Shown here piece after piece: positions 8,229 to 62,489 of a DNA stretch of 64,000 nucleotides. The notes under the pieces were generated by a model that saw nothing but the letters and a program-made list of their open reading frames with translations, was not told the origin of the DNA and ran no database searches. Position 1 is the first letter of the stretch; each line of letters opens with the position of its first letter. Origin of the DNA: Hysterangium stoloniferum (lineage: Eukaryota; Basidiomycota; Agaricomycetes; Hysterangiales; Hysterangiaceae); contig WHVD01000207.1 in assembly GCA_015178975.1 (NCBI GenBank), positions 1 to 64,000 of the forward strand. The letters run 5' to 3'. Made by a program: the position numbers and the translations under genes.

Positions 8229-8295
8229 TATGACGGTATTGGTAGGTTTTTTGGTTTGGTAGTGTGCACACGTGTTCTTGTGAAAACCTAGTGGG

Positions 8296-8635
8296 TGATC
8301 AGTCCACTAGTAGAAAATATAAAAGAATACGAAATTGAAGACAAAATACTCAAAAAGTGTAAGGTTCGGCTTTAAAGATAGCATAATCCTTCGGTTTGAG
8401 CTTCTTACGAAGAGGAACGAGCAGAGTAGGAATAGGCTCCAATTTGAAATAACTACTGTAGCTAATGGGTGGTTTCCCTATTTATGCTCGCATTCGTAGA
8501 CTAAACCCCCTAGCGACAGATAATAAAAATGAAACAGTGTTCTGATCGGAAAATTATCTACCCTCTCTTTACCCCCTGAGACACGGCGGTAGACCGCTCC
8601 GTGCCAAGTCCGCCACCAGGTCCGCTCCCGTTACA
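8296..8635 (-). repeat. 5' LTR of the Gypsy element (left boundary uncertain)
   Basis: The right edge is fixed at 8635 by identity to the other LTR. The other edge lies between 8229 and ~8310; I chose TGATCA at 8296 because the minus strand would then end in CA. No convincing primer-binding site starting TGG is visible. A near-perfect 23-bp palindrome (CTAGTGG...CCACTAG) spans the proposed edge. Confidence 0.7.
8479..8488 (-). promoter_or_regulatory. probable TATA box in the LTR
   Basis: The minus strand reads GCATAAATAGGG inside the LTR, about 150 nt from its 5' edge and ~250 nt before the gag ATG. It is conserved at position 1-8 of the other LTR. Confidence 0.5.
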
Positions 8636-17707: not shown

Positions 17708-19608
17708 TTAGCACCAATCCAGATGTTTCATTTGTCCAGGATGTTCTGGGTTCTTGGCTACAGTATGTGCTGACTGGTTGTCAATGAAGAGTTTTGATGG
17801 ACATGGTGCCTTGTATCCCAATTCCTTTAATAGATTCTGCATCCAACAAATCTCCTTTCCTGCTGCAACTGCTGCAACATATTCAGCTTCTGTGGTTGAT
17901 AGTGTCACAATCAGTTGTAGCTTGCTGCTCCAACATACTGCTGCTGATCCTACTTTGATTATATAGCCTGTTGTTGATTTTCCACTGTCCTTGTCTCCAC
18001 CATAACTAGCATCACTGAAGCCAACAAATAGGTTGAGATTTGAAGGATCTAGACCATATGTGAGTTTCATATCCATAGTTCCCTTCAAATATTGCAGTAG
18101 GTGTTTGACAGCCTTCCAGTGTGCCATACCAGGGTTTGAGTTAAACTGAGCCAATAGTCCTGCAGTGTATGCAATGTAGGGACAGGTGGTGGTGGCCAAG
18201 TACATCATGGACCCAACTGCATTCATGTAGGGAATTTCACACATTTCATTCTGTTCCTCCATGGTTTTGGGTGATTGATCTGATGATAGTTTTGCCCCTG
18301 GATCTATGGGTGTACCCACTGTATGACAATTTGAGATCCCAAATTCCTGTAATTTGTTCAAGATGTACTGGCATTGTGATAGAGAGATAGTCTGATTTTC
18401 TTGATCTTGTGTGATTTCAATGCCTAATAGGAAAGATGTAGGTCCTAGATCCCTGAGTTTGAAATGTGTAGCTAATTCAGCTACAAAATCATCCAGGACT
18501 TTTTCAGATGGTCCTGCAAGGGTGATGTCATCTACAAATATTGGAACAATGACTTTGATTTCATCTCATTGATAGATATAGACTGATGGATCAGAATAAA
18601 TCCACTTGAAGTCCATTTTCTCTAGTACACTCCACAGGTGTTTGCTCCAGAGGTTGCTTGCCTGCTTGAGTCCATATAGTGACTTGTCTAGTCTACATGC
18701 TACATCTGATCCTCCTTAGTGAAATCCTTCTGGCTGGACCTGTATATTTCTGCATCAATATCACTGTTGATGAATGCATGTGATATGTCAACTGATCAGA
18801 GGTGGAGGCCTTCTGCTACAGCCAGTGCTAATACTAGACGAATAGTAGCATGGCACATTGTTGGGGCAAAAATCTCTGTATAGTCAAATCCTGGTCTCTG
18901 GTTGTATCCTTTAGCAACCAATCGTGCCTTAAAGTGTTCTATTGATCCATCTGCCTTTCATTTCACTTTGAAAACCCATTTTGATCCTATAGCCTTTTTT
19001 CCTGGTGGTGGTCCAAGTTCCATTGCTCATGTGTGTGTTCATTTCCTCCAACGCTGCCTCTCTCTATTGTCTTGCCTGTGGACCATTCATTGCCTCTGTA
19101 AATGTCCTTGGTTCAGAAATAATTGACACATGTGCCTCCTCCAATTCCACTACATTGGTACTGTCAGAAGTGGTAGGATTGGGTTCCCAGGTTTTCCACC
19201 ATTCATTAGGAGGTTTTTTGTTGTGCAAAGGTTTTCAAATAGCAATTGGTCTGTTATCTTCCTCCTCCTCATTATCTGTGATCTGGGGGGTGATGTGATA
19301 ACATTGTCTTCAGATTCAGGTGCAGGTAATTCGTGATCCTCCAGAGGGGCAGTTGGTAATTCACTTGGTGGATTACCATCTTCTTCAACAACTGGACCCC
19401 CTGGGATATAATCCCTAGTACTTGATTCATCCTTCCCACCAGTATCTGGAACTTGTGGTGGTTGGTGTTTCCATGTATATCATTCATCAAATTCAGCTCG
19501 TTCACTGATCACTATCCTTCTTGTCAATGGGCTGTAGAATAACCATCCCTTATATCCTTCAGGATGCCCAATGAAGATGCATTTCTCCATGTGAGATCCC
19601 AGGCTTGA
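17708..19608 (-). pseudogene. Copia reverse transcriptase and RNase H, broken
   Basis: 17708-18361 is open and carries the end of RT and RNase H: VGTPIDPGAKLS, MMYLATTTCPYIAY, LLQYLKGTMDMKLTYG, FSDASYGGDKDSGKSTTGY, STTEAEYVAA and LFIDNQSAHTVAKNP. The RT active site reads IFVDDITLAGPSEKV at ~18500-18545, just after an in-frame stop. From 18560 to 19608 RT motifs appear only in short pieces in several frames, with many stops. Confidence 0.88.
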
Positions 19609-21618
19609 TCATTTGTCCTTTTGAATGTGAACATATGCAATGCATCCCCAAACTCTGATGTGACTGATATTTGGTTTCTTTTTGTGCCAAATTTCATATG
19701 GGGTTTTGTCCTTTAAGGCAGATGATGGGCAGTGGTTCCAGATGTGTACAAATGCAGCCAGGCAGTACTCCCAGAAGTTCTTGGGTAGTTCAGACTCTGT
19801 TAGCATGGTTGTAATCCCTTCTGCTAATGTCCAGTTTGCATGCTCTGCCATTCCATTTTGCTGAGGTCTATTACAGACTGAATGCTGATACAAGATACCA
19901 TATTTATTGGTGAATTCAATGAATGCCCTTGACATGTATTCTTCACCCTTGTCATCCCTAAGTTTCTTTATTTTCCATCCAAGGAGGTTTTCTGCAAATG
20001 CTTTGTACTGTTTGAATGCCCAGAAAACACCACTTTTGGACTTGATTGGGATGATGTAATAGAATATTGAAGCCTCATCAATGAATGTGACCCAATAGTA
20101 ACATCCAGATCGGGATCTTGTGCCAATATAGTGTACATCTGTATGTACCAACTCCAAAGGTTCATTGCAGTGATGTTCTGAGGAGGGAAATGGGTTGGCA
20201 TGCATCTTTCCTGCAAGACATGGTTCACAAATTGGATCTGGTTTAGCCTTTGAATTAAGTACCAATCCTGTAACCATGTTTCTTCTCATTAGATTCTTTA
20301 TCCCCTCATAGTGGTGAGGTCCCAATCTTCTATGCCACAGAGACAGATCTAGAGGTAAAGTAGAGGACATGTGCACATTCTCCATTTTATTTTTAATAGT
20401 CTTGCCATCCAAGTAGCCCACATTTTGATCAGTGATTGATGCAGTGAATAAAAGATTCCCATGGAGATTAAATCTTATGGTTTTGGATGAAATGTGTACA
20501 TCAAATTCTTTATAACGTGTGAGGTATAGGACAGCAAGAAGATTATTATGTAAAGCTGGAACATGTAATACTTTTGTGAATTCAACCTCCTGGCTAACTC
20601 TTCCATCAATGATTGGTTGAAAAATAACACTCCCAACACCTTCAGAATATACAATTCTATTGTCTGCAAGTTTTATTGGGGTTCTGTATAGGGTATAGGT
20701 GTGGAACCAGTTGTAATGGGATGTCATATGTGATGTGGCCCCTGTGTTTGTATTCCAATCATAGATATTAGCTGAGGTTGCACATGCATTATGTTGTGAA
20801 AAGACACTTGCTTTTCCTGTCTGTTCCTCTACTTCCTCTATTTTTGCCTCTTCCATCTTGTTAGCACTGTTGCATGACTTCCAGTTGTGCTGTAGCTTTT
20901 CTTTATTCCTTGGCTTTGGACAGTCATAGCTGAGATGCCCTTCCTTGTCACAATTATAGCAAACCATCTTTTTTCGATGCTTGATGGGTGCTTTGGCCCT
21001 ATTAACCATTTCTCCACAGCAATTGTGATTTAATTCCTCACTTCTGAATGCCTGGAGAATGGTATTCTTGTCCAACTTCTCCATGAGTAATAATGATGAG
21101 AAGAGGTGTGCATATTCCTCAGGAAGGGCCCAGATGAGTGCCATGCACTGTAATTCTTCATCCAACTTTTCAATCGTGAAGTCCTTTGGGTGCAGGTTTT
21201 GAATAGTCCCCATTGTTTTATCAATTCTGACACCCAAATCCATCAAAGACTCCTTTTCATCCTTTTGGATTAAGAATAGGTCATCATAGGCATTGAAACA
21301 AGCACCTGGTTTTTGTTGTAAGTGTGTCCTTTCCAACAAGTCCCACATTTTGATTGGATCTTCTTCAAATCCATGGAAATGCACTCTTTGATCATTTTCC
21401 ACCATAAGATATATCTCTGCAGCTGCTGTCTCTGCCTTTGTTTCCCACTTCTCAATGTTATCACTGCCATTTACTGGCTTGATTTCTTTTCCACAAACAA
21501 GCTTCCAATAACCCAACTTCATCAACCATGCCTTCATTTCTCCAGACCATTCTGGATAATTTTGGTTGTTTAATGGTTTGAATTTTGGTAATGATTCTGA
21601 GGATGTCATGCTTGACAC
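19609..21618 (-). pseudogene. Copia gag-protease-integrase frame
   Basis: A 669-codon open frame from ATG 21618 (MSSMTSSESLPKFKPLNNQN). It has a gag UBN2-like region, a CCHC knuckle CYNCDKEGHLSYDC and a protease site reading WNTNTGATSHMT, where the usual Asp-Thr-Gly-Ala is Asn-Thr-Gly-Ala. The integrase HHCC region (LWHRRLGPHHYEG ... CEPCLAG) is followed by a core with HTDVHYIG, LRDDKGEEYMS and QQNGMAEHANWTL. The protease Asp-to-Asn change should abolish processing, so the long open frame does not mean activity. It ends in VHIQKDK at the junction with broken RT. Confidence 0.92.
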
Positions 21619-21756
21619 AGTAGGGAAATTTTCGAAAATCTGAAAATTAAGGTTTCTTGCTTATGCAAGCAAAAGTGACAGGCTCAACCAAACCAAAAGT
21701 TGGTTTGTTATGCCTCCAAATTCAAGTACTTATAGTAATGTGTATTACAATTAGAA

Positions 21757-27230: not shown

Positions 27231-29913
27231 TCAAGAATTGTATAGCTTACAGAGGCTACCCAGATCAGCACTCATGACAACTAGAGGATACAAACACTTA
27301 CTAGATTTCAAGAGAATTTCAATCAGTATACAACGATGTTGCAAAGGTGGTGTGGGTAAATATAGATGGCACAATGCAGATAGGACTATCTGCAGCTTAA
27401 TGTTGGTAAGGCAACCTGCAAGACCGTCAAAGAAGTTAATTATGCAAAGAATTAAAGCTTACCATATTGAGCAAAAGCGACAAACAAATTTCCACCAACT
27501 GAAATGACTTCATCATTGTCGGCATCAAGAAGGGATATACAGTGATGTTGTAGGTTACAGTCAATAATAGCTGTACGAAAGCAATCTTGGAAAACATGGG
27601 TGAGGGGAAGGTGTTGACTTGCGTGTCAAGGGCACACACCATCAGCCGCTAGCTTAACGAGCAAGTCAACAACTTGTGTTTGAGTGTTTAAATATGAGTC
27701 TTCCAACAGTGCAACAATATCGGGAATAGCACCCGCAATGGCGGCTCGAAATCCAGCTGTGGTCAAATGTCAGCTGGATTGCCATCCTATTGTCACACGC
27801 ACCTTGCTCTGAAACCTTCCCCAGGGCCGATACTGCGCTTGATTGAACGTACCGCTCGGAGTCCTTCAACAGTGCAACAATGTCGGGAATGACACCCGCA
27901 ATGGCGGCTCGAAATCCGGCTGTGGTCAAATATCAGCTGGATTTCCATCCCATTGTCACACACCGCACCTTGCTCTGAAAGCTTCCCCAGGGCCGATACT
28001 GCGCTTGATCGAACGTCCCACTCAGAGTCCTTCAACAGTGCAACAATGTCAAGAATGACACCCGCAATGGCGGCTCGAAATTCGGCTGTGGTGAAATGTC
28101 AGCTGGATTCCCATCCCATTGTCACACACCGCACCTTGCTCTGAAACCTTCTCCAGGGCCGATACTGCGCTTGATCGAACGCCCGAGTGAGAGTCCTTCA
28201 ACAGTGCAACAATGTCGGGAATGACACCCGCAATGACGACTCGACATTCGACTGTGGTAAAATGTCAGCTGGATTCCCATCCCATTGTCACACACCGCAC
28301 CTTGCTCTGAAACCTTCCCCAGGGCCGATACTGCGCTTGATCGAACGTCAGAGTGAGAGTCCTTCAATAGTGCAAGAATGTCAGGAATGACACCCGCAAT
28401 GGCAGCTCGAAATTCGGCTGTGGTCAAATGTCAGCTGGATTCCCATCCCATTGTCACACACCGCACCTGGCTCTGAAACCTTCTCCAGGGCGGATACTGC
28501 CCTTGATCGAACGTCAGAGTGAGAGTCCTTCAATAGTGCAAGAATGTCGGGAATGACACCCGCAATGGCGGCTCGAAATTCGGCTGTGGTCAAATGTCAG
28601 CTGGATTCCCATCCCATTGTCACACCGCACCTTGCTCTGAAACCTTCCCCAAGGCCGATACTGCGCTTGATCGAACGTGCCACTCAGAGTCCTTCAACAG
28701 TGCAACAATGTCGGGAATGACACCCGCAATGGCGGCTCGAAATCCGGCTGTGGTCAAATGTCAGCTGGATTCCCATCCCATTGTCACACCGCACCTTGCT
28801 CTGAAACCTTCCCCAGGGCCGATACTGCGCTTGATCGAACGTGCCACTCAGAGTCCTTCAACAGTGCAACAATGTCGGGAATGACACTCGCAATGGCGGC
28901 TCGAAATTCGGCTGTGGTCAAATGTCAGCTGGATTCCCATCCCATTGTCACATCGCACCTTGCTCTGAAACTTTCTCCAGGGCCGATACTGAGCTCGATC
29001 GAACGTCAGAGTGAGAGTCCTTCAACAGTGCAACAATGGCGGGGAAGGCCGGCGCAATAACAGCTCGAAATTCGGCTGTGGTCAAATGTCAGCTGGATTC
29101 CCATCCCATTGTCACACACCGCACCTTGCTCTGAAACCTTCCCCAGGGCCAATACTGCGCTTGATCGAATGTGCCACTCAGAGTCCTTCAACAGTGCGAC
29201 AATGTCAAGAATGACACCCGCAATGGTGGCTCGAAACTCGGCTGTGGTCAAATGTCAGCTGGATTCCCGTCCCATTGTCACACACCGCACCTTGCTCTGA
29301 AACATTCTCCAGGGCCGATACTGCGCTTTGCCACTCAGAGTCCTTCAACAGTGCAACAATGTCGGGAATGATACCCGCAATGGCGGCTCGAAATTCAGCT
29401 GTGGTGAAATGTCAGCTGGATTTCCATCCAATTGTCACACACCGCACCTTGCTTTGAAACCTTCTCCAGGGCCGATAGTGCGCTTGATCGAACGTCAGAG
29501 TCAGAGTGCTTCAACAGTGTAAGAATGTCGGGAATGACACTCGCAATGGCGGCTCGAAATTCGGCTGTGGTCAAATGTCAGCTGGATGTCCATCCCATTG
29601 TCACACACCGCACCTTGCTCTGAAAGCTTCCCTAGCGCCGATACTGCGATTGATCGAACGTGCCACTTAGAATCCTTCAACAGTGCAACAATGTCGGGAA
29701 TGACACCCGCAATGGCGGCTCGAAATTCGGCTGTGGTCAAATGTCAGCTGGATTCCCATCTCATTGTCACACCGCACCTTGCTCTGAAACCTTCCCCAGG
29801 GCCGATACTGCGCTTGATCGAACGTCAGAGTCAGAGTCCTTCAACAGTGCAACAATGTCGGGAATGGCGGCGGCAATGGCGGTTCCAAATGCGTCTGCAA
29901 ATCCATGAATCAT
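27231..29913 (-). CDS. HEAT-repeat protein encoded by tandem exon-intron units (left array)
   Basis: Fourteen HEAT exons of ~117 nt (39 codons) alternate with ~47-49-nt introns, each exon keeping phase 1. A unit encodes EFRAAIAGVIPDIVALLKDS, three variable residues, VRSSAVSALGKVSEQ. The leftmost units differ: a HEAT exon ending LVKLAAD, then FRTAIIDCNLQHHCISLLDA, an intron with GTAAGC...CTTGCAG, and a tail CLTNIKLQIVLSALCHLYLP ending at TGA 27231. The rightmost exon (29778-29913) can start at ATG 29913 with correct phase; a TATATA lies ~35 nt upstream. Its 3'-splice-site-like TTTGCAG at the HEAT exon edge also allows this array to be the continuation of the gene at 30086-35287. HEAT repeats form a superhelical protein-binding scaffold. 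Confidence 0.75.
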
Positions 29914-32900
29914 GGCAGTTTACGAGGAATTGGTGCACGGACCAAATATATACAGAGCAGTGACCATCCTTAGCAGAGCGAACTTTCCATTTCGCGCTTT
30001 CAGGTCGAATCTAGATAAGGGAAGGTAAAAATTCCGCGCTTAAAGTGGGATGGAAATTAGTGAATGAATAATACATGACCTGTCTTCACATACATGTAAT
30101 TATTACACATTGAATGATCTTGATGTCTTGATGACGCGAAATACTATCAGTACTATGCAAGAGATCCACAGTTGACGACAGCGGACAGGTAGACAATCCG
30201 GGGAGGTCTCGCATATCGGGCACACTTGCTAGATTACCGTAAGATTGATCAGAATGAGAGGGAAAACAAGAGGGAATGGGAATACTTTCAAGTGGGATTG
30301 GAAGTGACTCACGCAGCGTTGGTCGCTTCGACAATCCTACAGTCGCATGTATTTCAGCCCTGACGAGAGGGAGAAGCTCCCCTGTGGAGATTTAAGACAG
30401 ATCCTTAGACAAGATTTATTGGATCACCTTGTTCTGAAAATTTCGACAGGGCTGATGCTGCGCTTGATCGAACGTGCCACTCAGAGTGCTTCAACAGTGC
30501 AACAATGTCGGGAATGACACCCGCAATGGCAGCTCGAAATTCGGCTGTGGTCAAATGTCAGCTGGATTCTCATCCCATTGTCACACCGCACCTTGCTCTG
30601 AAACCTTCCCCAGGGCCGATACTACGCTTGATCGAATGCGCCACTCAGAGTCCTTCAACAGTGCAACAATGTCGAGAATGACACCCGCAATGGCGGCTCG
30701 AAATTCGGCTGTGGTGAAATGTCAGCTGGATTCCCATCCCATTGTCACACACCGCACCTTGCTCTGAAACCTTCTCCAGGGCCGATACTGCGTTTGATCG
30801 CACGTAAGAGTCAGAGTCCTTCAACAGTGCAAGAATGTCGGGAATGACACCCGCAATGGCGGCTCGAAATTCGGCTGTAGTCAAATGTCAGCTGGATTCT
30901 CATCCCATTGTCACACCGCACCTTGCTCTGAAACCTTCTCCAGAGCCGATACTGCGCTTGATCGAACGTCAGAGTGAGAGTCCTTCAATAGTGCAAGAAT
31001 GTCGGGAATGACACCCGCAATGGTGGCTCGAAATTCGGCTGTGGTAAAATGTTAGCTGGATTCCCATCCCATTGTCACACCGCACCTTGCTCTGAAACCC
31101 TCCCCAGGGCCGATACTGCGCTTGATCGAATGCGCCACTCAGAGTGCTTCAACAGTGCAACAATGTCAATAATGACACCCGCAATGGTGGCTCGAAATTC
31201 GGCTGTGGTGCAATGTCAGCTGGATTCCCATCCCATTGTCACACACCGTACCTTGCTCTGAAAGCTTTCCCAGGGCCGATACTGCCCTTGATCGAACGCC
31301 AGAGTCAGAGTCCTTCAACAGTGCAACAATGTCAGGAATGACACCCGCAATGGCGGCTCGAAATTCGGCTGTGGTGAAATGTCAGCTGGATTCCCATCTC
31401 ATTGTCACACACCGCACCTTGCTCTGAAACCTTCTCCAGGGCCGATACTGCGCTTGATCGAACGTACCGCTCAGAGTGCTTCAACAATGCAACAATGTCG
31501 GGAATGACATCCACAATGGCAGCTCGAAATTCGGCTGTGGTCAAATGTCAGCTGGATTCCCATCCCATTGTCACACCGCACCTTGCTCTGAAACCTTCCC
31601 CAGAGCCGATACTACGCTTGATCGAATGCGCCACTCAGAGTCCTTCAACAGTGCAACAATGTCGGGAATGACACCCGCAATGGCGGCTCGAAATTCGGCT
31701 GTGGTGAAATGTCAGCTGGATTCCCATCCCATTGTCACACACCGCACCTTGCTCTGAAACCTTCGCCAGGGCCGATACTGCCCTTGATCGAACGTACTGC
31801 TCAGAGTCCTTCAACAGTGCAACAATGTCGGGAATGACACCCGCAATGGCGGCTCGAAATTCGGCTGTGGTCAAATGTCAGCTGGATTTCCATCCCATTG
31901 TCACACACCGCACCTTGTTTTGAAACTTTCCCCAGGGCCAATACTGAGCTTGATCGAACGTGCCACTCAGAGTGCTTCAACAGTGCAACAATGTCGGGAA
32001 TGACACCCGCAATGGCGGCTCGAAATTCGGCTGTGGTCAAATGTCAGCTGGGTTCCCATCCCATTGTCACACACCGCACTTTGCTCTGAAAGCTTCCCCA
32101 GGGCCGATACTGCGCTTGATCGAACGTGCCACTCAGAGTCCTTCAACAGTGCAACAATGTCAAGAATGGCACCCGCAATGGCGGCTCGAAATTCAGCTGT
32201 GGTCAAATGTCAGCTGGATTCCCATCCCATTGTCACACACCGCGCCTTGCTCTGAAACCTTCTCCAGGGCCGATACTGCGCTTGATCGAACGTACCGCTT
32301 GGAGTGCTTCAACAGTACAACAATGTCGGGAATGACATCCGCAATGGCGGCTCGAAATTCGGCTGTGGTCAAATGTCAGCTGGATTTCCATCCCATTGTC
32401 ACACACCGCACCTTGCTCAGAAACCTTCCCCAGGGCCGATACTGCGCTTGATCGAACGTACCGCTCAGAGTGCTTTAACAGTGCAACAACGTCGGGAACG
32501 ACACCCGCAATAGCGGCTCGAAATTCGGCTGTGGTGAAATGTCAGCTGGATTCCCATCCCATTGTGACACCGCACCTTGCTCTGAAACCTTCTCCAGGGC
32601 CGATACTGCCCTTGATCGAACGTCAGAGTCAGAGTCCTTCAACAGTGCAACAATGTCGGGAATGACACCCGCAATGACGACTCGACATTCGGCTGTGGTA
32701 AAATGTCAGCTGGATTCCCATCCCATTGTCACACACCGCACCTTGCTCTGAAACCTTCCCCAGGGCCGATACTGCGCTTGATCGAACGTCAGAGTCAGAG
32801 TCCTTCAACAGTGCAAGAATGTTGGGAATGACACCCGGCATAGCGGCTCGAAATTCGACTGTGGTCAAATGTTAGCTGGATTCCCATCCCATTGTCACAC

Positions 32901-33356
32901 ACCGCACCTTGCTTCGAAAGCTTCCCCAGGGCCGATACTGCCCTTGATCGAACGTACTGTTCAGAGTCCTTCAACAGTGCAACAATGTCGGGAATGACAC
33001 CCGCAATGGCGGCTCGAAATTCGGCTGTGGTGAAATGTCAGCTGGATTCCCATCCCATTGTCACACACCGCACCTTGCTCTGAAACCTTCTCCAGGGCCG
33101 ATACTGCGCTTGATCGAACGTATCGCTCGGAGTGCTTCAACAGTGCAACAATGTCGGGAACGACACCCGCAATGGCCGCTCGAAATTCGGCTGTGGTCAA
33201 ATGTCAGCTAGATTCCCATCCCATTGTCACACACCGCGCCTTGTTCTGAAACCTTCTCCAGGGTAGATACTGCGTTTGATTGCACGTAAGAGTCAGAGTC
33301 CTTGATCAGTGCAACAATGTCGGGGATGGCACCGACCATGCCCGTTGGGAATCTAG
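27680..33356 (-). repeat. ~166-bp tandem HEAT exon + intron units (14 + 18 copies)
   Basis: The unit is one 117-nt exon plus one 47-49-nt intron (GTGCGGTGTG ... AGCTGACATTTGACCACAG). Thirty-two copies are seen, interrupted at 29914-30420 by non-repeat sequence. Intron copies are as similar to each other as exon copies. In-frame 9-nt and similar indels occur in exons (for example near 29325), but I saw no stop in the exons I translated. Confidence 0.93.
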
Positions 33357-35287
33357 CTGAACACCCGTGCATATTACATCGTACTTCTTGTCCACTTGGC
33401 ATTTTCTTACCACATTCCACTAGTAATTGTTCCACAGAAACACCTGCTTTTTTAACCCTTTTCTTCATCCACTCCTTTTCTTTTCCTGCTGTGTTAATAA
33501 TTAGGTACGTGTGTTTTGACTCATGGGAAATGTATTTTACCTGCTATTAAACCCTTTTCTTCCAGCATTTTGCGGCAATCCGCTGCCCATTAATCAGTTT
33601 CTTTGCCGGTGCTATGGAAAAAATCCTTACCAAGATGCCAATATGCTAATATTAACCGTTCGCAGGTTACATGTAAGCCCTTCTTTTCTGACAGTGCTCC
33701 ATCAATAGTCGCCGCCATTAAAGTCCTTCGCTCGTATGGTGCTGCACCCATAGTGGCCACCGTTTCAATTTGTCGTTCTGTCGGCACCTCTAGGTTCCCG
33801 TCATCCATGTTTACCCAAATACCCATATGAACCGCCCATCCCAATGTCTTCACGCAAGGGTCTAAATTATCCAACCGATGCAATGGTCTCCCAACATGTA
33901 AGAGTCTTTTGAAGGGGGTAAGGTACTCTTTGTTCATGAGTTTGTCTGTTGGCGGCGATAGGACTCGTGACATTGCAAGGAGAGAAACTTCCGCAAGCGC
34001 TGCATCCCGTATAGTGACGACGCCTGCGGTAAAGTTAAAGCAGTTCTCCAAAATTTTGCATAATTTCTCCGTGACGGCTAGTTTACACAAGGCAATCCGC
34101 AATTGTTGACATTGTTTAGCACCCGCTACAGCCCTAAGTGCCTCGTTAACTGCCTCCTCCGATGTGGAGTTTGCAATCACCCATGCCAGGATATCAGCTT
34201 CAAGTTCGGCCCGTGGAGGCTTGCCATGCAATTCGGCGAAGAACCGAGCAAGGCTTTCTAGCCATTCAGAAATTCCGAATGTATACGGCCTTGTCTGTGG
34301 CGAAGACCCACAGTAGTCTGAGGTGGACGAGTGATACTTTGCGCTTGCAGAGACGACTGGGAAAAACCGCGACGCTGTTGTCTGAAAGGGACAAGCGGGG
34401 GAAAACAAGGGAAAAACGGTGCCGAGTATATATAGCACGATTGCAAATATGGTCAAAAAAAGCATAAGAACGCCCAAAGCTACACTGTTATTCCAGGTGA
34501 ATAAGACGAGACCTGTCGAGAAAAGGAAGAGAGCTATTTGAATCAAAAGCGGGATTCCAGTAACAACTGACTCGAGGCGCCATTGTTGTGCTCTCTTAAC
34601 ACGAAGGAGACGTTGGCATGCATCACTTGAGCGACTTCCGGGGGACACAGGAATATACTTTGTCAGCCATTCTCTTGCAAGTACAGCACAAAGAGCACTG
34701 AAGAGAGTCAGACCGAGACTAGTGAACCACAAATAGTTAACAATAAGGGATGATTTGGAGACTTCAAAAGTCTGAGAGGTGGTTACAGCGAACCGATTTT
34801 GAAGCGCCTGAAGGATTTCCTGAACAGGATCTACCTGCAAATCCTTCCTACTTTCGATCAGGAACGCGGTAAGAATCGCTCCGAACAAACCAGCCTGAAA
34901 AGCTGGAAATTTATTAAATATGTATGAAGGAAAAGGTATTCAACATACAAATATTAGAAGCTGGTCGACACCAACTTGCAATGAATTGGCAAGTTCTTTG
35001 TCCTCTTTTTCCGTTTCCTTCAGATATAATGACCATATGGTTGAATCGGATTTAACGTATTTGCTATAGGGGTTATCGTCCTCGCTTTCTAAGCCATTAT
35101 CATCACTGGATGCCGGCTCGGTTGGGCTTGAGGGAACATTGGTAGACGAAGGTTGACGGTTGGTCGTTCCTTGTTCCTCTGCGTGCGTGCCTCAGTTTAG
35201 AATAAGTGTAAACTTTGATTTAATACCTGAGACAAACGGTATCTGTGATTCGGCGTAGCTAAGGTCTTGTGCATACGGCGAAGACAT
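30086..35287 (-). CDS. DUF6535-like membrane domain + HEAT-repeat protein (right array)
   Basis: A complete exon model can be read: exon 1 35227-35287 (MSSPYAQDLSYAE), exon 2 34949-35178, exon 3 33631-34894, exon 4 33541-33582, exon 5 33411-33488, then ~18 HEAT exons from 33356 down to ~30438. Introns are 35179-35226, 34895-34948, 33583-33630, 33489-33540 and 33357-33410 (48-54 nt), and all phases agree. Exon 3 has the DUF6535 pattern AGLFGAILTAFLIESRKDLQ with further membrane segments at NYLWFTSLGLTLFSALCAVL, GIPLLIQIALFLFSTGLVLF and VLMLFLTIFAIVLYILGTVF, then a soluble helical region. The HEAT part is ~700 residues. After the last repeat, an exon from ~30390 (GELLPLVRAEIHATVGLSKR) stays open to a stop at 30086, or the gene splices on to 29905. 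It is probably membrane-anchored; ligand unknown. Confidence 0.8.
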
Positions 35288-35588: not shown

Positions 35589-36102
35589 ACACATCAGGAG
35601 TTACAACATTTAAGGCGGCACTAAAATATTATTTAAACCTGTTTACAAAACTTTAAGTCCTAAAATGGATTTGTACTCAGTTATTACTTCAACTATAGAC
35701 ATAAGTTTGGGTAAGAATTTAAACTCAAAGTGTGGATATCTGTGGAAAGCAATGTCTAAACCTAAGACTATACTTCAGGTATAATTAGGCCCAAAACTTA
35801 TGCCCTTCCAATTCCTTTTAATTTTAGTTTAGACGTGATCCAAACTTGTTGTTTAGGACACGCTTTTACCAGAGTTTTTATTCTAAGTCCAGACAAATGT
35901 TTACCCCTTATAGAAACCCCAAGTTTGAATATAGGTTTAAAAATAAAATAAAACCCCAAGTTTTGTAAAGACCTAGAACTAATTGCCCGCTCATCGCCCA
36001 CCCATTGCTTGCCCATTACCCACCCATCGGCAGATCAATGCCAGACCGTTGGCCAGCCATCGCACACATTCTGCCTGCCCAGAAAAGTGCACAAGATACA
36101 CA
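35589..36102 (+). repeat. left terminal inverted repeat
   Basis: About 99% identical to the complement of 38472-38983. It contains two CAAACTTGGGGTTT-like subrepeats (in complement) and ends GTGCACAAGATACACA. Confidence 0.92.
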
Positions 36103-36487
36103 TTTGTCGTCGTGCCGATCACTGTTGTCTTGCTCTCCAGACTTTCATCGCCGCGATACAAACCTTTTTGTTAATTATGTTTATAAGAAGACAATTGGAA
36201 TCTTATGATATGCCAAGGCAAATGACTTCGAAGCAACAATAAGTGAATAATGAATCATGTGCGACTATTACTCTTTTGTGGTTTTTTTTTGTGTCCGTAA
36301 AAGGAAGTCCTGTGACTTGGCATACTCTCATACAAGGGGACCAGTATCTCATTAACTAACACCCCCGCTCACATCTACCACTCACATCGCCCGCTGGTCC
36401 TTCATCTGCGCTGGTCGTCTCACTGCTCTCACCACTTGCCTCTCATCCCCGCCCCAGTCTGCCCTATCAGTTGCACAAACTTCCTCG

Positions 36488-37062
36488 ATGGAAACTACCA
36501 GACCGGCTGCGTTGTTCTTCGATCCAGGGTTGCCTCCAGCGGCGTTGCCTATACTCACCTCTCATACGGACCTACACTCTGTCGCCCACCCTCATCGGGT
36601 CCTGGCTCATGAGGAACTGCCTCACCTCGATGCCACACACTCTGTATCCCGCCCCTCTTGTCGGGTCCTGGATGCCACGCATGTCAGTACCCCAAAGGCA
36701 CATGCAAGAACACACCCCAAAAATCCTGTAAGACCCAGGGAAAGGGACATTCATATCGACCCCCGCGACGATGAAGATGAGGGTGCCGCTTCGGATGACA
36801 CAGAGTCTACGACGAGATCGTCCACAGCTTCCAACAACGAAGTATCCGACGATCCAGAGACCAAGATCCTGAAGCCCGACGGCAAACCTGGGCGCCCCGG
36901 TCGTGGGGGATACAACTTACAATGTGCCTTGAACTGGAACGTTAGTGCCTACAACAAGCTGAAGGTAAGATGGCATGCTCATCCCTTGGAAAAGTACTGA
37001 TTCTCTAGCATCCAGAAATGACGACGTTCGCAATTTTCTGCAATATTTCCCTGCAAATCTAG
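36488..37062 (+). CDS. small cargo protein with KPxGKPGRPGRGGYNL motif
   Basis: ATG 36488 (METTRPAALFFDPGLPP). Exon 1 runs to 36964, an intron 36965-37008 (GTAAGA...TACTGAT...CTCTAG, 44 nt) follows, and exon 2 ends at TAG 37060-37062. The ~176-residue product has a Pro/His-rich N half, an acidic Ser/Thr linker (DDEDEGAASDDTESTTRSS) and the motif KILKPDGKPGRPGRGGYNLQ with ALNWNVSAYNKLK. This motif occurs in many basidiomycete proteins of unknown role, often near mobile DNA, and those I recall continue further after the motif, so this copy may be truncated. It is enclosed by the long TIRs. Confidence 0.55.
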
Positions 37063-37167
37063 CATGCGCCTTACATAACGAAAAGCGCTGTAAGCCAGAT
37101 TGCCGCTTACCAAGCTCCTTGTTCGGACTCCCATGAGTGTGCGCGTAAATTCTGAACTCTGCACATC

Positions 37168-37310
37168 TGAGATGCTCTATTCTCCAGTCGCCCACCCTTC
37201 GCCCACTCACATCCCTCTTATCTCTAGTTGCCCACTCAAATCCTCATGAGTGAGATGCTTTCTTCTCCAGTCACCCACCCTTCACCCACTCACATCCCTT
37301 ATCTCTAGTA
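37168..37310 (+). repeat. two direct copies of a ~60-bp motif
   Basis: GAGATGCTYTMTTCTCCAGT CRCCCACCCTTC-type sequence occurs at ~37168-37226 and ~37252-37308, with the shared end CACATCCCTTATCTCTAG. Confidence 0.7.
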
Positions 37311-38471
37311 TCTTATCATAGGTGATGTATTGCCAAAGACTGGTATTACTGACATGTGCGAGCTACACCCAACAGTCTGTGGAATGTTATGGAGTGTGGT
37401 ACTGATCTACGTGCCCTTATGCCATTGACCCATGATTGTCGTCCTTTTCTAGGGGCAATGAATTGTTGATGCTGAGGCAGCAATGTCGTTTGAAGAAAAA
37501 TGCATAGTGGTAAATGTTATTCCCCTCGTGAACATTTACAATGCAATTGTGAATATAAGGTTGTAGGATGGCGTTGTCAAAGAAACATTCAGTATAGGGG
37601 TATCGATTTGTAAACTGCACCCGACCAGTGCAACGTGTAGGGACAGCTACCTGTCGCGGCCTGTGATGACTTGCTGAATACAGACGGCAGCGTATCATCA
37701 ACTCACATGTCTAGAGAGTGTAGTGAGTATTGATACAGTTCTAAGAATTTTGAAGACTAACTTCAGGCATTGGGGGAATGTAGGTTCGGGAATTGACCAT
37801 GATAAAGAAAAGAAGTTGGTATATGTGGGGGGAGTCGTTATTATGAGGTGACGACGGCCAGGTTGTGAGGTACGAGTAACGCAGTGATGAGTAGGAGACG
37901 AGAGGGGGCGACGACACCCAGTGAAGAGAGCGGGCGACGAGAGCGTGTGACGAGAAAAAAAAAAAGGTGCAACCAGTGCGGCGAAGAGAGCGGGCGATGA
38001 GATTGGACAGAAGTAAATGCAACACAGGAGACTTTTAGCAGAAGCGGACAAAAAAAAAAGACATGGCGACGAGCGTGGCACGCTATCTTGCCAAATAGAG
38101 AAGTACAAAAAAAAGACTTGCCAAATAGAGAATTACAAAAGCACAATTAGTCAATTAGTATAATTGTAGAGCTTGTCACCTGAGATACGCAATGTGCCTT
38201 ATCAATACATTATAATTACTATTACCATTACAATCCGAGAACGAAGCGATAACATGGGGCTGGGACAAAAAGTCACCAAGTGATAATATGTACAAACATG
38301 GTCTCTTCGATGAGCGTTGGATGATCAAAAGATAATATATTAAAGTCTGACGACTGCCTTAAAGGATTAGTGCAGTTTATGTGTATAACTAAAGTTGTAA
38401 AAAATATGAAATGAATAAATGCTACATTGAGTGAAAGTTAGGCTCGAGAGGATTAGGTAGTAAAGTCTTGT
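37311..38471. other. interior of the TIR element without recognised gene
   Basis: 37840-38110 is purine-rich on the plus strand, with GACGAGAG repeats and A9-A11 runs, and a duplicated TTGCCAAATAGAGAA (38089-38103 and 38120-38134). The minus-strand frames here are low-complexity and have no recognisable domain. Confidence 0.45.
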
Positions 38472-38983
38472 TGTGTATCTTGTGCACTTTTCTGGGCAGG
38501 CAGAATGTGTGCGATGGCTGGCCAACAGTCTGGCATTGATCTGCCGATGGGTGGGTAATGGGCAAGCAATGGGCGGGCGATGAGCGGGCAATTAGTTCTA
38601 GGTCTTTACAAAACTTGGGGTTTTATTTTATTTTTAAACCTATATTCAAACTTGGGGTTTCTATAAGGGGTAAACATTTGTCTGGACTTAGAATAAAAAC
38701 TCTGGTAAAAGCGTGTCCTAAACAACAAGTTTGGATCACGTCTAAACTAAAATTAAAAGGAATTGGAAGGGCATAAGTTTTGGGCCTAATTATACCTGAA
38801 GTATAGTCTTAGGTTTAGACATTGCTTTCCACAGATATCCACACTTTGAGTTTAAATTCTTACCCAAACTTATGTCTATAGTTGAAGTAATAACTGAGTA
38901 CAAATCCATTTTAGGACTTAAAGTTTTGTAAACAGGTTTAGATAATATTTTAGTGCCGCCTTAAATGTTGTAACTCCTGATGT
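38472..38983 (-). repeat. right terminal inverted repeat
   Basis: Mirror of 35589-36102; outer end TGTTGTAACTCCTGATGTGT. Confidence 0.92.
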
Positions 38984-41900
38984 GTCAGATGTTAGACGCA
39001 TACCTTCAAAGAGGGCGTCGGGTAATAATAATGTATAGAGTATTTTGTAACAAATCAAACAAAAAAGAGCTTAGGGTTTACTCAACTCTGTCCATAACGC
39101 ACTTTCCCTATCGAAACGGGCATACGCCTGATGGGCCTTGCAGTCGGGTCGTACAGCAACCACCTCTCAAGACATTTATATTTTCTGTAAATCTAATCCT
39201 TCCTTTAATTAGCGTGGCATTGGTCATCTCATCTACCTTCTGTATACCGGACACTCAAAAGTCTCCTACAGTTGCAAAGCGTGTCACAGTGACATCGGCA
39301 AACGCTTCACCCGCAATCGCGGGTATGCTTCACAATTCCCGGTTCAATCTAAAACCGAAGACTTCACGATACTACTCCCTTTATATGGGACAAGATGCGT
39401 TGCAGAGAGATAATATGTTGACGTGACAATACCCGTGTTACCCCACTGTCACCTGGTTTTTGTAATGATATATGACCAGAAGTCTCGCCAAGGAGTAGGT
39501 GTGGTCAATCCTCGTATTTATACATTTACTGTTTGCTCATGTACACGTTTTTGTCCATACATATTGCCCATCGCACGTCATTCCTCCCATGTAGCCTTCA
39601 CAAATATTCTAAGCGCTCAACAAGATGAACTCGAGAGCTAGCATGGTTTGGAGAATCTAATGTCAGCTATCCAACCTTCATTAAGCATAACAGATTACAC
39701 TGTCTCCTCATCTATGATTCGCCCTTTGTACTTGTCTTTTTTCTTGGTCTCCCTTCACCGTTTCCTATCACCATGGCCTCTTCAATCCATTCTACTTTGA
39801 CATACGTGGCCAATATTGTGGCTCCATCATTATATCTCGTCATTGGGTTACAGTGACCTCGCTTCTGGTTTCATTATCGTTCATCCGTCTCCGCTGTGCG
39901 TTCCTTTCTCACATTTGTCACGTCTGTCAAGAGTTTCACACACGCCATGTTCCTCGTACAACATCTCTCCCCGGGCTCACATAACCTTCCTTACGAAGAC
40001 AATCTACATTTGATGTTATGCTTTCGCTCTGAACACACTCTGCATGACGACATGTTGAATCATGTACATACAAGTATCAGACTGTGATTCTTGCCACCAG
40101 GTTAAATAAGACGATGGGGGAAAACTTAATGAGTATGGAGCCTATTTGAGGCAATTTTCGAACGGAAGACGATGCTGACGTTTACATTTATAACAGAAAT
40201 ACGGCGGATTATACGCTCTGTGTGTATCTCAAACCTGAAGTCGATTTCTTGCGTAGCCCGACCCCAAACACCGCGCCACGATTCCCCACGATAATATTGA
40301 GGATGTCGACCATATACATGCGCCATTTTTACGGTTAAAGATAGGTATGACGATCGTGACTGCGCGCGACGTACTCGTGGACTATCTTAGCATCGATACT
40401 AATGACCTTTGTTTTTATGTTCAGCACTAAATATGGCTGTCCTCAGCGGCTTCTACTGCATACACCTCTTTCCTGCCACGTTCCGAAGCGTGACAACCTA
40501 CACCATCCTTCACGCCGGAAACGCCGGAACCATACTAGCAAGCATAAGCTCAAGGCCAGCAACAATGCGTAATAGAACGCGCATACCTCTTTGACCTAGG
40601 TTTGGGCGTGGCCACTACAACTTGGCAATAGGGAGACGTTGGATAATGGGTGTGGGTTATGACAAATTGTCTGACCATACAACTTTAATTAACACTGGCT
40701 CACCTAGATGCAGTGTTTCAGCATATCTGGAGAATGTAGAGTACAATTAGCGCGTATCTCTAATGTACTCGGTTACTACAACCTATCTATGTGCGGTAAA
40801 AGAGCCCGGATATTAAACAATCTTATAGGAAGTTCACTATCGTGCACTTGTTCTACGTATCACAAAGCAAAGAGATTTTCTCATAAGTATCATCTCTAGC
40901 TGTTTCCTATTGAACTAATCTCTTTAAAGCAACTTTTCCCATACGCAGAACTTGAACGCCAGATTAGGAGAACTATGGAACCTACACCACCTCGAGATCG
41001 CGCCGTGACAGCCACGTTCCCTCTACTTCCTTTCCTTTGACTCCGATGCAACCTTTACCCTGTCCCATTGAGATCTGTCCCGGCGGCCTTAGTGCGGTGG
41101 TCACAGTAGGCGACGTCTTAGAGGGTATCTATCACAACTGATTGCGACATCTCGCAGGCTTGAATGGTACGGTGCACTTGTTAACACCAGGAAGCGCATC
41201 AGGGCAGTCGTCGCTCCGCCGTTGCAAACCCTAGTTGACATGAGTGACCACTCGACAAGATGGACTCGAGAGCTAGCTAGCATGGTTTGGCGACTCTAGC
41301 GCCAGCTGTCTGTCCTTCGTTATAGCTAAGCTATTATGCGTCGCGCCCCTTCTCCTCATATACCCATTCGTCCTTTGGACTTGTCTTTTCTTGGTCAACC
41401 TGTTGCCTATCACCATGATATCCTCTTCACTGCATTCTCTTTCAACACGGGGCTAAGAAATACGCACCGTTATATCTCGCCGTTGGGTTGCCGTGACTTG
41501 GCTCAAAGCTTCAAGACCCACATTGTCGTGATATCTCCAAACTGTAGAAAGCCACGAGCGCTAGTCTGTGGACATCCTCTAAGATTACGGTTAAGGACAG
41601 GTATGACCATCGTGGCTGCAACATCTTCGTTGGTCATCTTGGCATCAATCGTTAATGATCTTGACTTCAGTTTAGCACTAAATGTAGGCGCCTTCAATGA
41701 CTCCTGCCGCATACACCTCTTGCCCATCATCGTTCCAACGGTTAATCAAACTACATCATTCTCGGTGCCGGAATGTGTCTAACTGTACTAGCCAAACATG
41801 TGCTCAAGGCCGGCAAATACCACTTGAAACCGCGCCAGAACGTGGATATCTCTTGGAGTCAATTCTGCCGTAGCCACTGCAGGTTGTCAGGACGCATAAT

Positions 41901-45312: not shown

Positions 45313-46374
45313 CTAAATCCTCAGCAACACCCTGCGAGTGGCTCGGCCAACGTCCTTTGGGGTTGGAAGTTCTCCAGTGCTGCAAGTATTAGTATCGTTG
45401 GCCTTCACTTCCTTGGAGTCCCATTTTGAGGCAGAGTCGGAATCGGAAGCAATGTGGGCAATGTAAGCAGCGTTATCTTCTGACAACTGATGTAACCGTC
45501 TTCGAGACTTTGCTTCACTGATGACTTTGTCCTTAATCTTCTGTGGCATATCAGCAATGCAGTGTGAGGACCGATGGCCCGGACGTCCACACCAATGACA
45601 GACATCCCTGTTCTTTGGGTTCAGCCAGTCAAACTGGGCTTCTCCCTCAGACTCTGAGTCCAAATCTGAATCATCCTTCTTTCGGCGCCATTTCCCTTTT
45701 CCTTTTCCTGCTCTCTTCTGTGAATACAAGGCTGCCTCAAGTTCCTGGGTCTGAGTGCTGCCATTAAGTGCAGTTTTTGTATCTTCTTGATCAGTTAAGG
45801 TTTTCTTAACAATAGTAAGAGTAGGCTCTAATGATCCTGATGTGAGAAGAGTCCGAACGATTGCAAAAGAAGAGTCGAGGTTCATGAGAATGGAGTCAAC
45901 AATATCTGTTGCAGCGGGTGCATGCCCAAGAGTTGTAAGTTCTTCAGCAGCCGAAACAATGTCCTGGATATAGAGTGAGACTGGTTTGGAGGTGTCATGG
46001 ACTGGATTATAAAGACGTTTCTTGAGTTCAAAACGGGCTGCACGAGAATCCTTTTTGTATTCAGATTTGAGGCTCAGCCAAACGTCGTTTGCAGTTTGTG
46101 GTGGAGTTGTATCCTTGAAGTGGGTTGTCCGAACAGCGTTCGATGAAATTGTTTTGTAGAGGGCTGCCCTAGCTCGTTGGTCTGCTTTGAGCCATGCCTG
46201 GAGTGTAGTGTCATCCTTTAGTGGTTTTGATGAGCTCTTTATGTGCTCCATAAAGTCAATGTCCTCTCCAAAAGTCATCTCAAACTCCTGAGTCCAGATC
46301 CCATAATTTTCACCAGTGAATTTGTTTTGGTCATCGAAGGTTTGAAGTAAATCATATATGGTAGGCTGTACCAT
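45313..46374 (-). CDS. Copia-type Gag protein
   Basis: The likely start is ATG 46374 (MVQPTIYDLLQTFDDQNKF), because the upstream 24 codons run back toward the primer site; the frame is open from 46446. The 353-residue product has a UBN2-type Gag region (FTGENYGIWTQEFEMTF, LKADQRARAALYKTISSNAV, DVWLSLKSEYKKDSRAARFE). A basic linker (KRAGKGKGKWRRKKD), an acidic stretch, a CCHC knuckle CHWCGRPGHRSSHC near residue 270 and a Ser/Asp-rich tail follow. Gag would form the particle and bind RNA. The ORF is intact, unlike nearly all other element ORFs here. No protease follows, so particle processing would depend on a partner element. Confidence 0.93.
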   Translation of the reverse strand: MVQPTIYDLLQTFDDQNKFTGENYGIWTQEFEMTFGEDIDFMEHIKSSSKPLKDDTTLQAWLKADQRARAALYKTISSNAVRTTHFKDTTPPQTANDVWLSLKSEYKKDSRAARFELKKRLYNPVHDTSKPVSLYIQDIVSAAEELTTLGHAPAATDIVDSILMNLDSSFAIVRTLLTSGSLEPTLTIVKKTLTDQEDTKTALNGSTQTQELEAALYSQKRAGKGKGKWRRKKDDSDLDSESEGEAQFDWLNPKNRDVCHWCGRPGHRSSHCIADMPQKIKDKVISEAKSRRRLHQLSEDNAAYIAHIASDSDSASKWDSKEVKANDTNTCSTGELPTPKDVGRATRRVLLRI

Positions 46375-46448
46375 GATGATGTGGTAGTACGAGATGTTGA
46401 AATAAAAAGTGGAGAAAGAGAAAAGAGAGTATGAGAGTTGATGCACTG

Positions 46449-46463
46449 GCGGGGCCCGTAACC
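46449..46463 (-). promoter_or_regulatory. putative primer-binding site of the gag-only element
   Basis: The minus strand reads GGTTACGGGCCCCGC right after the 5' LTR. It resembles the half-tRNA-type site of the Copia at 21757-21772 (GTTATGGGCCCCAGC). Confidence 0.5.
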
Positions 46464-46599
46464 TGTTAGAAATGGCTGACTGAAATATGACAATGCTGAC
46501 CGGATGATGTGCACAGTGGACAAAGAAGCTCTGTAATTATTATTACATAATACAGCGCTACTGATTCTGCACCTCGAGCCGTAACCACAAAAACTAACA
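46464..46599 (-). repeat. 5' LTR of the gag-only element
   Basis: 136 bp, adjoining the right CATTA duplication at 46600-46604. Confidence 0.95.
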
Positions 46600-54057: not shown

Positions 54058-55080
54058 CTAATCCTTTATATGACCCCCCTTTGCATTTAAAACTGCCTGT
54101 ATCCTCCTAGGCATGCTTTCTATTAGCTTCTGGCATGTCTCTGGTGGTATTTCAGTCCACTCCTTTTCCACCCTGTCCCATAATTCATGTACTCCTTTGG
54201 GTGGTACTGTATGTCATATTGCTGGAGTTTGGCCTTGAGGTGTTGCCAGAGGTGTTCAATGGGATTTAGATCAGGGGATTGGGCAGGCCATTTCATGGGA
54301 ATTATGTTATTGTCAGAAAACCACTGGTCTGCCTTTTTTGAGGTATGTTTTGGATCATTGTCCTGTTGGAAGTACCACTTATCCCCAGCCATCTCCAAAC
54401 TTTCAATGCTCTCCTCCACTCCCTCCTCCAAAATCTCACAATACTGCACTGCATCCATGGCCCCCTGTACCTCTATCAACTTCCCCACCCCATTCCAGCC
54501 CATACACCCCCAAACCATCAAGTTATTCCCTCCTCCATGTTTGACAGTTGGTGTAGTGGTCCTGTCTGATACTGGTTCTCCTTGTTGCTTCCAAACATAT
54601 ACCTTCCCATCTGACCCAATCCTATTGATTTTTGCCTCATCCGTCCACAACACCCTCTTCCAGTCCTCCATAGTCCAATTTTCATGGCATTGGGCAAACT
54701 TTAGATGTTGCTGATGATGAGACCCCTTGAGCATAGGGACTTTCTTCTTTGTTGCTGACCTACAGGCAGCTTCCTTCAACACATTCCTAACAGTCTGAGG
54801 AGTGACAGAGGTAGATATGATGGGATTTATGAATTGGGTGGCTTGGACAGCATTGTCAAGCTTCCCAGAGCTGATTTGATGGATAATTGACTGTTTATCA
54901 TAAGGGGAAAGCTTGGAAGGATGACCACCAGGATGATTTTCCTTATCTCCCTCTATCTCCCTACTGATCCTGCCAATAGTACCCTTCCCCAGGCTAGTCC
55001 TAGCTTGAATTTTATGATGGGAATACCCCTCATGAGGAGAGAAACAACAGAAGAATGCTTTTCAGCAGAGATGGATTTCA
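54058..55080 (-). pseudogene. Tc1-family transposase, two frameshifts, catalytic triad intact
   Basis: ATG 55080 (MKSISAEKHSSVVSLLMRG) starts the DNA-binding part. A frameshift at ~55026 (G run) is followed by SHHKIQARTSLGKGTIGRIS and HPGGHPSKLSPYDKQ. 54123-54782 is open and carries the catalytic domain: WTMEDWKRVLWTDEAKINRI (Asp 1), YFQQDNDPKHTSKKA (Asp 2), WPAQSPDLNPIEHLW (Glu), with exactly 34 residues between Asp 2 and Glu (DD34E). A second frameshift near 54205 precedes the end MPRRIQAVLNAKGGHIKD and the stop at 54058. It is much better preserved than Tc1-A. Confidence 0.93.
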
Positions 55081-59170: not shown

Positions 59171-59199
59171 GCTGGTTGAGAAATATTGAACAAAGTGAC

Positions 59200-59460
59200 A
59201 GGGTGACATAACACCGTGGGAAGCCCGAAGGCTCACTTTGCTCGCAGGTGCTTCTATTTTATGACTCAGTAATGATGCCCACAGACCCACCGACGTGAAT
59301 TAATTTATATGACAAGCTTAGGAACCCTTGCTATGCTGCAGGGCTTCGCGACCGGCCCCACAACTTTGCTGCAGGCTCCAGCTTGTTGGGTGGAAAAGCC
59401 CGCCAAACCCCCCCCCCCCCCGTGTCGACAACTTTTAAGTATTTCTGAGACTCATTGTTT
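59200..59460 (+). repeat. conserved GC-rich spacer, copy 1
   Basis: Contains CCCACAGACCCACC, GGAACCCTTGCTA, GGCCCCACAACTTTGCTGCA, GGCTCCAGCTTGTTGG, C14 at ~59409-59422 and CAACTTTTAAGTATTTCTGA. A homologous spacer is at 62540-62735. Confidence 0.85.
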
Positions 59461-60108: not shown

Positions 60109-60114
60109 AAATGG

Positions 60115-60598
60115 AAGCCACAGCCCCAAAAGGAAACAATGGTTACAAAAGGAGACAAAGGTTACAAAAGGAAACAACAGTTACAAAAGGAAACAACGGT
60201 TACAAAAGGAAACAACGGTTACAAAAGGAAACAACGGTTACAAAAGGAAACAACAGTTACAAAAGGAAACAACGGTTACAAAAGGAAACAACGGTTACAA
60301 AAGGAAACAACGGTTACAAAAGGAAACAATGGTTACACAGGAAACAACAGTTACAAAAGGAGACAAAGGTTACAAAGGAAACAGTGGTTACAAAGGAGAC
60401 AATGGTTACAAAAGGAAACAATGGTTACAAAAGGAAACAATGGTTACAAAAGGAAACAATGGTTACAAAAGGAAACAATGGTTACAAAAGGAAACAATGG
60501 TTACAAAAGGAAACAATGGTTACAAAAGGAAACAATGGTTACAAAAGGAAACAATGGTTACAAAAGGAAACAATGGTTACAAATGGAAAGAGTGGTTA
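60115..60598 (+). repeat. 18-bp satellite C, module 1
   Basis: About 26 units of GGAAACAACGGTTACAAA / GGAAACAATGGTTACAAA. 18 is a multiple of three, so long frames arise automatically in several frames. Confidence 0.97.
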
Positions 60599-62480: not shown

Positions 62481-62489
62481 GCTGAATAA

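Follow-up and report, generated by a model that had tools for sequence, protein, structure and literature searches.

Single-exon HEAT repeats behind a DUF6535 domain in Hysterangium stoloniferum: a candidate family of membrane-tethered recognition proteins

Introduction

Recognition by fast-changing repeats is already known for the fungal NOD-like receptor (NLR) proteins, whose repeats evolve by changes in number and at a few variable positions, HEAT being among the repeat types reported (PMC4986451, PMC12222747). In the former, repeats of high internal conservation are those sharing >85% identity over at least 100 amino acids. A second point of reference is provided by the artificial alphaRep binders, in which repeat positions 18, 19, 22, 23, 26 and 30 are varied and of which one, bA3-2, contacts its target via the concave face bearing the variable positions (PMC3754942). 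The present work deals with a gene located at 35287-27231 on the minus strand of a 64,000-nucleotide stretch of DNA from the basidiomycete Hysterangium stoloniferum (contig WHVD01000207.1, C121 of the 111-Mb assembly), which as a whole is referred to as the window; the gene itself is the window locus. It encodes a DUF6535 domain followed by tandem HEAT repeats, and a preliminary description had regarded it as a possible membrane-tethered, repeat-diversifying recognition protein.

DUF6535 (PF20153) has no function assigned in Pfam. The sole full-text match for it in our literature search, PMC12387923, names the domain in an expression table for Flammulina, and among the matches listed for fungal HEAT repeats none describes a DUF6535-HEAT family; most subscription papers lie outside both searches.

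We propose, with a probability of roughly 0.57, that the gene encodes a membrane-tethered recognition protein which has no nucleotide-binding domain and is probably diversified by repeat turnover together with selection on one face of the repeats. We prefer this reading because the gene is open, carries hydrophobic segments and two repeat arrays, differs from its paralogues in the number and order of units, and displays an excess of change at three codons of the repeat. The membrane segments, the concentrated variation and the turnover support what had been proposed initially, while the reasoning from scaffold contrast, on which that proposal had leaned, did not hold (see below).

Results and Discussion

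Gene organization and coding potential

A manual splice model, checked by translation, joins 41 exons on the minus strand (35287-27231) into a coding sequence of 6057 nt, free of internal stops, that encodes 2018 amino acids; both ends, with the start codon at 35287 and the stop codon at 27231, are consistent with the model, and the splice sites and the stop were compared with those of the paralogues. The five-exon head with DUF6535-like membrane segments was confirmed, being open and matching DUF6535 at 152.3 bits (cut-off 23.9, E 1.6e-44, profile positions 1-177). Hydropathy analysis revealed four hydrophobic segments at residues 90-117, 151-169, 207-236 and 238-271, and the loop after the second of them has a net charge of +5. 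As the positive-inside rule relates loop charge to membrane topology, this suggests that both ends of the protein face the cytosol. Exon 3 of the head is under purifying selection, with a median ratio of nonsynonymous to synonymous rates (dN/dS) of 0.43 (0.27-0.75) over 91 pairs from 14 of 20 loci; five others, with unmatched boundary patterns, and L054 were left out. At the other end of the gene, most of the paralogues compared can be aligned with the window locus over the C-terminal exons and the stop, and the cap itself gave no Pfam match at E <= 0.1.

In the head only DUF6535 passed the Pfam cut-off, and no known cell-death effector domain was found there. Neither NACHT nor NB-ARC was matched at E <= 0.1 in the 618-amino-acid head, in the central module with unit 19 or in the C-terminus; elsewhere in the genome NACHT gave 38 matches at E <= 0.001. 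We therefore do not class the protein as an NLR.

Every HEAT unit is, as was stated previously, one exon of constant phase: 32 such exons, all of phase 1, extend over 33356-27640 on the minus strand and contain no stops. The unit is 117 bp long in 31 of them and 108 bp in unit 22, which has an in-frame loss of 9 nt, and the introns between units measure 46-49 bp. A test protein of four units (three exact window units and one consensus unit) matched HEAT (PF02985) at 75.9 bits, the cut-off being 23.5, with four stretches matched. The 32 units do not form a single array; there are two arrays, units 1-18 and 19-32, split by a 533-bp stretch. Unit 1 forms the end of head exon 5, and the boundary units 19 and 32 are divergent. 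To call the repeats near-identical is likewise to overstate their similarity, since the 27 canonical units of the window average 79.7% pairwise amino acid identity (91.5% to the best partner). GC instead of GT donors stand after units 1 and 7 (positions 33239 and 32245, minus strand), and GC donors recur in L051, L053, L054 and L056.

Twenty loci, the window locus included, were read fully or nearly so and yielded 578 units, of which 510 canonical ones were retained after first units, units beside the module and units not of 117 bp (68 in all) had been dropped. The 5,622 differences of these 510 units from their locus consensus would, if placed at random, have produced 210.9 stops, and a single stop-bearing unit was observed; with each distinct substitution counted once (2,264), 88.6 stop-makers would be expected. 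Exon length departs from a multiple of three in one of the 578 units, the introns being 42 to 56 nt long. Two counts run counter to this: 26 of the 2,264 distinct substitutions, each placed alone on the consensus, would create a stop, although in the real units that carry them other bases of the affected codons differ too, and in the full set three of 578 units, in three of the 20 loci, bear stops. Several tests nevertheless agree that the units are coding, given one stop-bearing unit in 510 against 210.9 expected stops, the frame-keeping exon lengths and the dN/dS of the head.

These results also bear on the idea that the arrays are mostly decaying repeats amid transposon-rich DNA, with little function left. 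It finds some footing in the transposon open reading frames (ORFs) of the window, in the broken module of L043, in an array on contig C17 that has no readable head, and in the head of L054, which is apparently out of frame: its alignment has two single-base gaps, and one frame matches only residues 134-522. The 14 stops counted in that head are no part of this evidence, some being due to a start that was set one base off. With stops in one of 510 units, the frame kept in 577 of 578 and a head dN/dS of 0.43, we consider such decay very improbable.

Conserved and variable positions of the repeat

Between the units of the window locus, introns are 95.8% identical and exons 89.4%. The scaffold is indeed almost invariant, as the preliminary description had it, but this is no proof of constraint, because the repeat introns are even more alike; the contrast between a conserved scaffold and variable positions, taken alone, consequently proves nothing. 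The sameness of the scaffold reflects recent shared descent and homogenisation rather than mainly constraint. The eight variable triplets named earlier (ERY, EWH, EWD, HSD, DSY, DSD, EQY and KWH) are all present, and variation is not spread evenly over the 39 positions: in the 31 full-length window units, entropy is concentrated at positions 22, 23 and 24 (1.82, 1.90 and 2.26 bits), followed by positions 34 (1.49) and 28 (1.35), with every other position at <=1.10 bits. Among the 510 units, codons 22-24 form 157 distinct triplets.

For the codon tests, which are simple pairwise counts among units inside one genome without a recombination model, intron divergence was computed on the 350 units whose intron measures 49 nt. 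When codons 22-24 are set aside, the averages across the 20 loci are 0.125 for the proportion of nonsynonymous differences (pN), 0.154 for that of synonymous ones (pS) and 0.115 for the introns. The rest of the exon is thus close to neutral overall, and only some core positions fall below the intron level, with median ratios to it of 0.05 at codon 11 and 0.31-0.41 at codons 3, 7, 17, 18, 33 and 37. At codons 22-24, pN is higher than intron divergence in every one of the 20 loci (means 0.36 versus 0.115; 0.404 versus 0.048 in the window locus), and it exceeds the synonymous divergence of the remaining exon in 20 of 20 as well. Taken singly, codons 23 and 24 lie above intron divergence in all 20 loci and codon 22 in 15. 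The sign test for 20 of 20 gives 9.5e-7, which is not a strict probability, the paralogues being related. Amino acid change at the variable residues thus surpasses two neutral yardsticks, and on this point the earlier view is strengthened.

Neutral concerted evolution would explain part of this picture: unequal exchange would homogenise the tandem exons, and codons 22-24 would be unconstrained loop residues. The introns, more alike than the exons, and the scaffold, with pN close to both pS and intron divergence, agree with it. Lost constraint, however, should bring these codons to the neutral level only, whereas they exceed the introns in all 20 loci, by a factor of about 3 when means are compared and of about 8 in the window locus, so that we regard neutrality as an unlikely account of the three codons.

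A local effect of mutation or conversion, by which codons 22-24 mutate faster or escape homogenisation so that old variants persist unselected, has to be weighed on the same data. Here some of our results speak against selection: pS computed at codons 22-24 by the NG86 method is also high (mean 0.38), and seven of the ten residues compared change codon somewhat more at 22-24 than elsewhere (R 0.281 versus 0.153 and E 0.139 versus 0.089; D 0.144 versus 0.150). The abundance of distinct triplets is in keeping with such an effect too. Yet among pairs with the same residue the codon differs in 0.141, 0.171 and 0.177 of cases at positions 22, 23 and 24, inside the range of the other codons (0.029-0.405), which is too small for a 3-fold excess, and the non-adjacent positions 28 and 35 vary as well, as on the alphaRep surface. 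A modest effect of mutation or age at 22-24 is possible, but it was judged too small for the excess, and a purely local, unselected origin of the variation appears rather unlikely.

Predicted position of the variable residues on the HEAT surface

Among the PDB chains closest in sequence are artificial binders of the alphaRep type and the scaffold of protein phosphatase 2A (PP2A). The varied alphaRep positions 18, 19, 22, 23, 26 and 30 align to positions 23, 24, 27, 28, 31 and 35 of the unit studied here, where mean entropy is 1.90 bits versus 0.96 at the remaining positions (one-sided Mann-Whitney p = 0.0014; p = 0.013 inside positions 20-39), the signal being carried by positions 23, 24, 28 and 35. 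At positions 23-24, W, Y and F make up 23% of residues versus 1% at seven other positions of our choice. The alignment to alphaRep therefore supports the placement of the variable sites on the known HEAT binding surface, as a prediction from sequence.

The correspondence is partial, and the following observations detract from it. Positions 27 (1.26) and 31 (0.99), whose alphaRep equivalents are varied, show no strong variability in our units, and positions 9, 13, 16 and 32 vary outside the alphaRep set, as does 22. Structure prediction, which had been suggested for locating the variable residues on one face, gave with AlphaFold one continuous helix for a lone unit, not a hairpin, and a model of head exon 3 too poor to use (mean predicted local distance difference test score, pLDDT, 46.3).

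Gene family and turnover of the arrays

A 1-kb array query of the assembly gave 194 matches in at least 26 places (grouped among the matches listed), DUF6535 gave 75 matches, and the window head protein gave 103 matching pieces, with at least 44 places above 500 bits, the window included. About 1.2 kb downstream of DUF6535, one or more HEAT-like units were detected with a loose motif in 29 of the 30 loci with the best DUF6535 matches, the window locus being among the 30 and L009 the exception. Across the loci read, the first array, preceding the module, holds 2 to 25 units and the second, following it, 10 to 30, by a scan that omits the divergent end unit.

The paralogue on contig C157 is 95% identical with the window locus over 2.19 kb comprising the head and its 5' flank, and one scan counted 18+13 units in the window and 13+20 in C157. 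The arrays of the two loci share five collinear matches (<=5 differences), against a mean of 5.4 and a maximum of 8 after shuffling, i.e., unit order is unrelated between paralogues whose heads are 95% identical. An allele of the window locus was sought in the assembly and rejected, the best head match being this 95% paralogue, with flanking DNA beyond it unmatched; the comparison of unit order is accordingly one between paralogues, not strains. Array content does turn over between close paralogues.

Among the 350 units whose intron is 49 nt long, the nearest partner lies in the unit's own locus for 208, and 20 have an exact copy there; the absence of any exact copy in another locus (0 of 350) does not favour a wider exchange. 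Since exact copies occur within loci and not between them, the data reveal exchange inside single loci but do not demonstrate any recent exchange from one locus to another.

This turnover is a difficulty for a structural or adaptor role, in which a long HEAT spring would scaffold trafficking or membrane contacts and the paralogues would be tuned to fixed partners. PP2A scaffold chains among the best PDB sequence matches and a head under purifying selection are compatible with that role. Array content unrelated between paralogues with 95% identical heads, together with the large copy number, would be unusual for fixed partners, and we find such a role improbable.

No alternative heads were found on arrays that have no DUF6535 match, a statement that covers C17, the one array read among those of C17, C533 and C346. 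On C17 (L058, G000:C17:219000-221700), gypsy-like ORFs occupy the head position of such an array.

The central module

The 533-bp stretch follows unit 18, and all 20 loci, the window locus among them, have such a stretch (492-547 bp) separating two arrays. The idea of two genes arose here from a reading frame that runs into a stop and from an in-frame ATG near a TATA-like stretch. The gap as a gene boundary was rejected, as a three-exon splice through it gives an open frame in all but one of the 20 loci, and among these 19 the exon lengths differ by multiples of 3. The last exon of the module, C, is 68 nt long in all 20, and the introns (45-47, 82-85 and 78-81 nt, some larger) differ also by non-multiples of three. 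When the bridge was searched together with unit 19, the Pfam matches sat on unit 19 or its edge.

Some loci do not fit this splice. The first module donor is without GT in six of 20 (L044, L045, L048, L051, L052 and L054), which were translated at the aligned position regardless; two acceptors in L051 and one in L055 are without AG; and L043 has lost a piece of its module. Because of these absent donors and acceptors the module is the least certain part of the gene model, its splice being not proven.

Proposed mode of action and its meaning

If the protein recognizes partners as proposed, the DUF6535 part would anchor it with both ends in the cytosol, and the concave face of the solenoid would bind a protein ligand, each repeat contributing residues 22-24 together with 28 and 35. 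The specificity of the protein would keep changing as single-exon units are duplicated, lost and exchanged and as selection acts on the binding residues. The simplest account of these features would be that the protein recognizes, from the cytosolic side, protein partners that vary. Binding may then alter the membrane domain and lead to a response such as cell death or fusion arrest; this trigger step is a conjecture drawn from the analogy to fungal NLRs, and the recognition part appears better supported than it.

A broader view, which we hold tentatively, would see in the family a receptor repertoire without a nucleotide-binding switch, comprising dozens of paralogues built of reshuffled single-exon cassettes, a natural counterpart of an alphaRep library for self/non-self, partner or parasite recognition. 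If true, the sensing half known from fungal NLRs could couple to other outputs, a membrane domain replacing the nucleotide-binding one, and DUF6535 would acquire a testable role. The presence of one exon per repeat makes gain, loss and order of units readable directly from long reads.

Feature coordinates and genomic surroundings

Table 1. Features of the window locus (positions in the window)
Feature	Position	Strand	Description and basis
Whole gene	27231..35287	-	41 exons, 6057-nt coding sequence, 2018 amino acids; splice model, translation, paralogue comparison
Head, exons 1-5	33240..35287	-	Acidic N-terminus, DUF6535, linker; first HEAT unit ends exon 5
Head exon coordinates	35287-35227, 35190-34949, 34894-33631, 33582-33541, 33485-33240	-	Splice model
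DUF6535 match	34490..35035	-	Match interrupted by a 54-bp intron; Pfam profile and hydropathy
HEAT array 1, units 1-18	30428..33356	-	117-bp phase-1 exons, introns 47 or 49 bp
Example variable site, codons 22-24 of unit 10	31794..31802	-	Unit start position
Central module	29943..30381	-	Exons 30381-30313, 30228-30090, 30010-29943; 92-amino-acid bridge between arrays; splice not proven
HEAT array 2, units 19-32	27640..29894	-	Unit 22 with 9-nt loss; unit 32 divergent end unit
C-terminal cap, exons 40 and 41	27231..27585	-	Exons 27585-27463, 27415-27231; splice model, paralogue alignment

Just upstream of the gene lies a 3.4-kb repeat (window 35589-38985) with 514-bp terminal inverted repeats, 99% alike; 99% identical copies of it are present on C1 and C512, and on C377 flanks matching those of the repeat meet without it between them. 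A further block, 39454-41724, is 79-93% similar to DNA near DUF6535 loci on C377, C1, C54 and C57 and is probably part of segmental duplications; inspection by eye, with no family search made, revealed no clear gene in it. Transposable-element ORFs occur at 1-8635, 17708-21660, 45313-46536 and 54123-55061, among them a retroviral-type protease ORF in an 8.6-kb repeat, copia-type gag and integrase ORFs and a transposase ORF, and long tandem arrays with units mostly of 16-67 bp, some matching at >=95%, fill positions 56870-63970.

Comparison with known systems

With alphaRep the window protein shares the HEAT-type scaffold and the location of diversity, positions 23, 24, 28 and 35 here corresponding to alphaRep 18, 19, 23 and 30, an overlap which suggests that nature has reached the same binding face as the designed binders. 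It differs in being natural, in its 39-amino-acid unit, about eight residues longer, in its predicted membrane anchor, and in that the positions equivalent to alphaRep 22 and 26 are not strongly variable.

The fungal NLRs named for comparison are het-d, het-e and het-r of Podospora and the sesB-like/NACHT/TPR(HEAT) protein Pa_6_7270 (PMC4986451, PMC12222747). Like these, the window protein belongs to a gene family with similar tandem repeats of changing number, displays above-expectation variation at a few surface positions per repeat (here predicted ones), and uses HEAT. Set against the 85% line for high internal conservation, the all-pairs mean identity is 79.7% in the window and 85.5% in L039, a measure that is not the method of PMC4986451 itself. 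The NLR-type likeness drawn in the preliminary description is therefore retained for the mode of repeat evolution and not for the domain architecture: in place of NACHT or NB-ARC, neither of which was found in the parts scanned, the window protein carries in front a DUF6535 domain with four hydrophobic segments, and, unlike in the fungal NLRs, each of its repeats is an exon of its own and its two arrays are joined by a module shared among the loci read.

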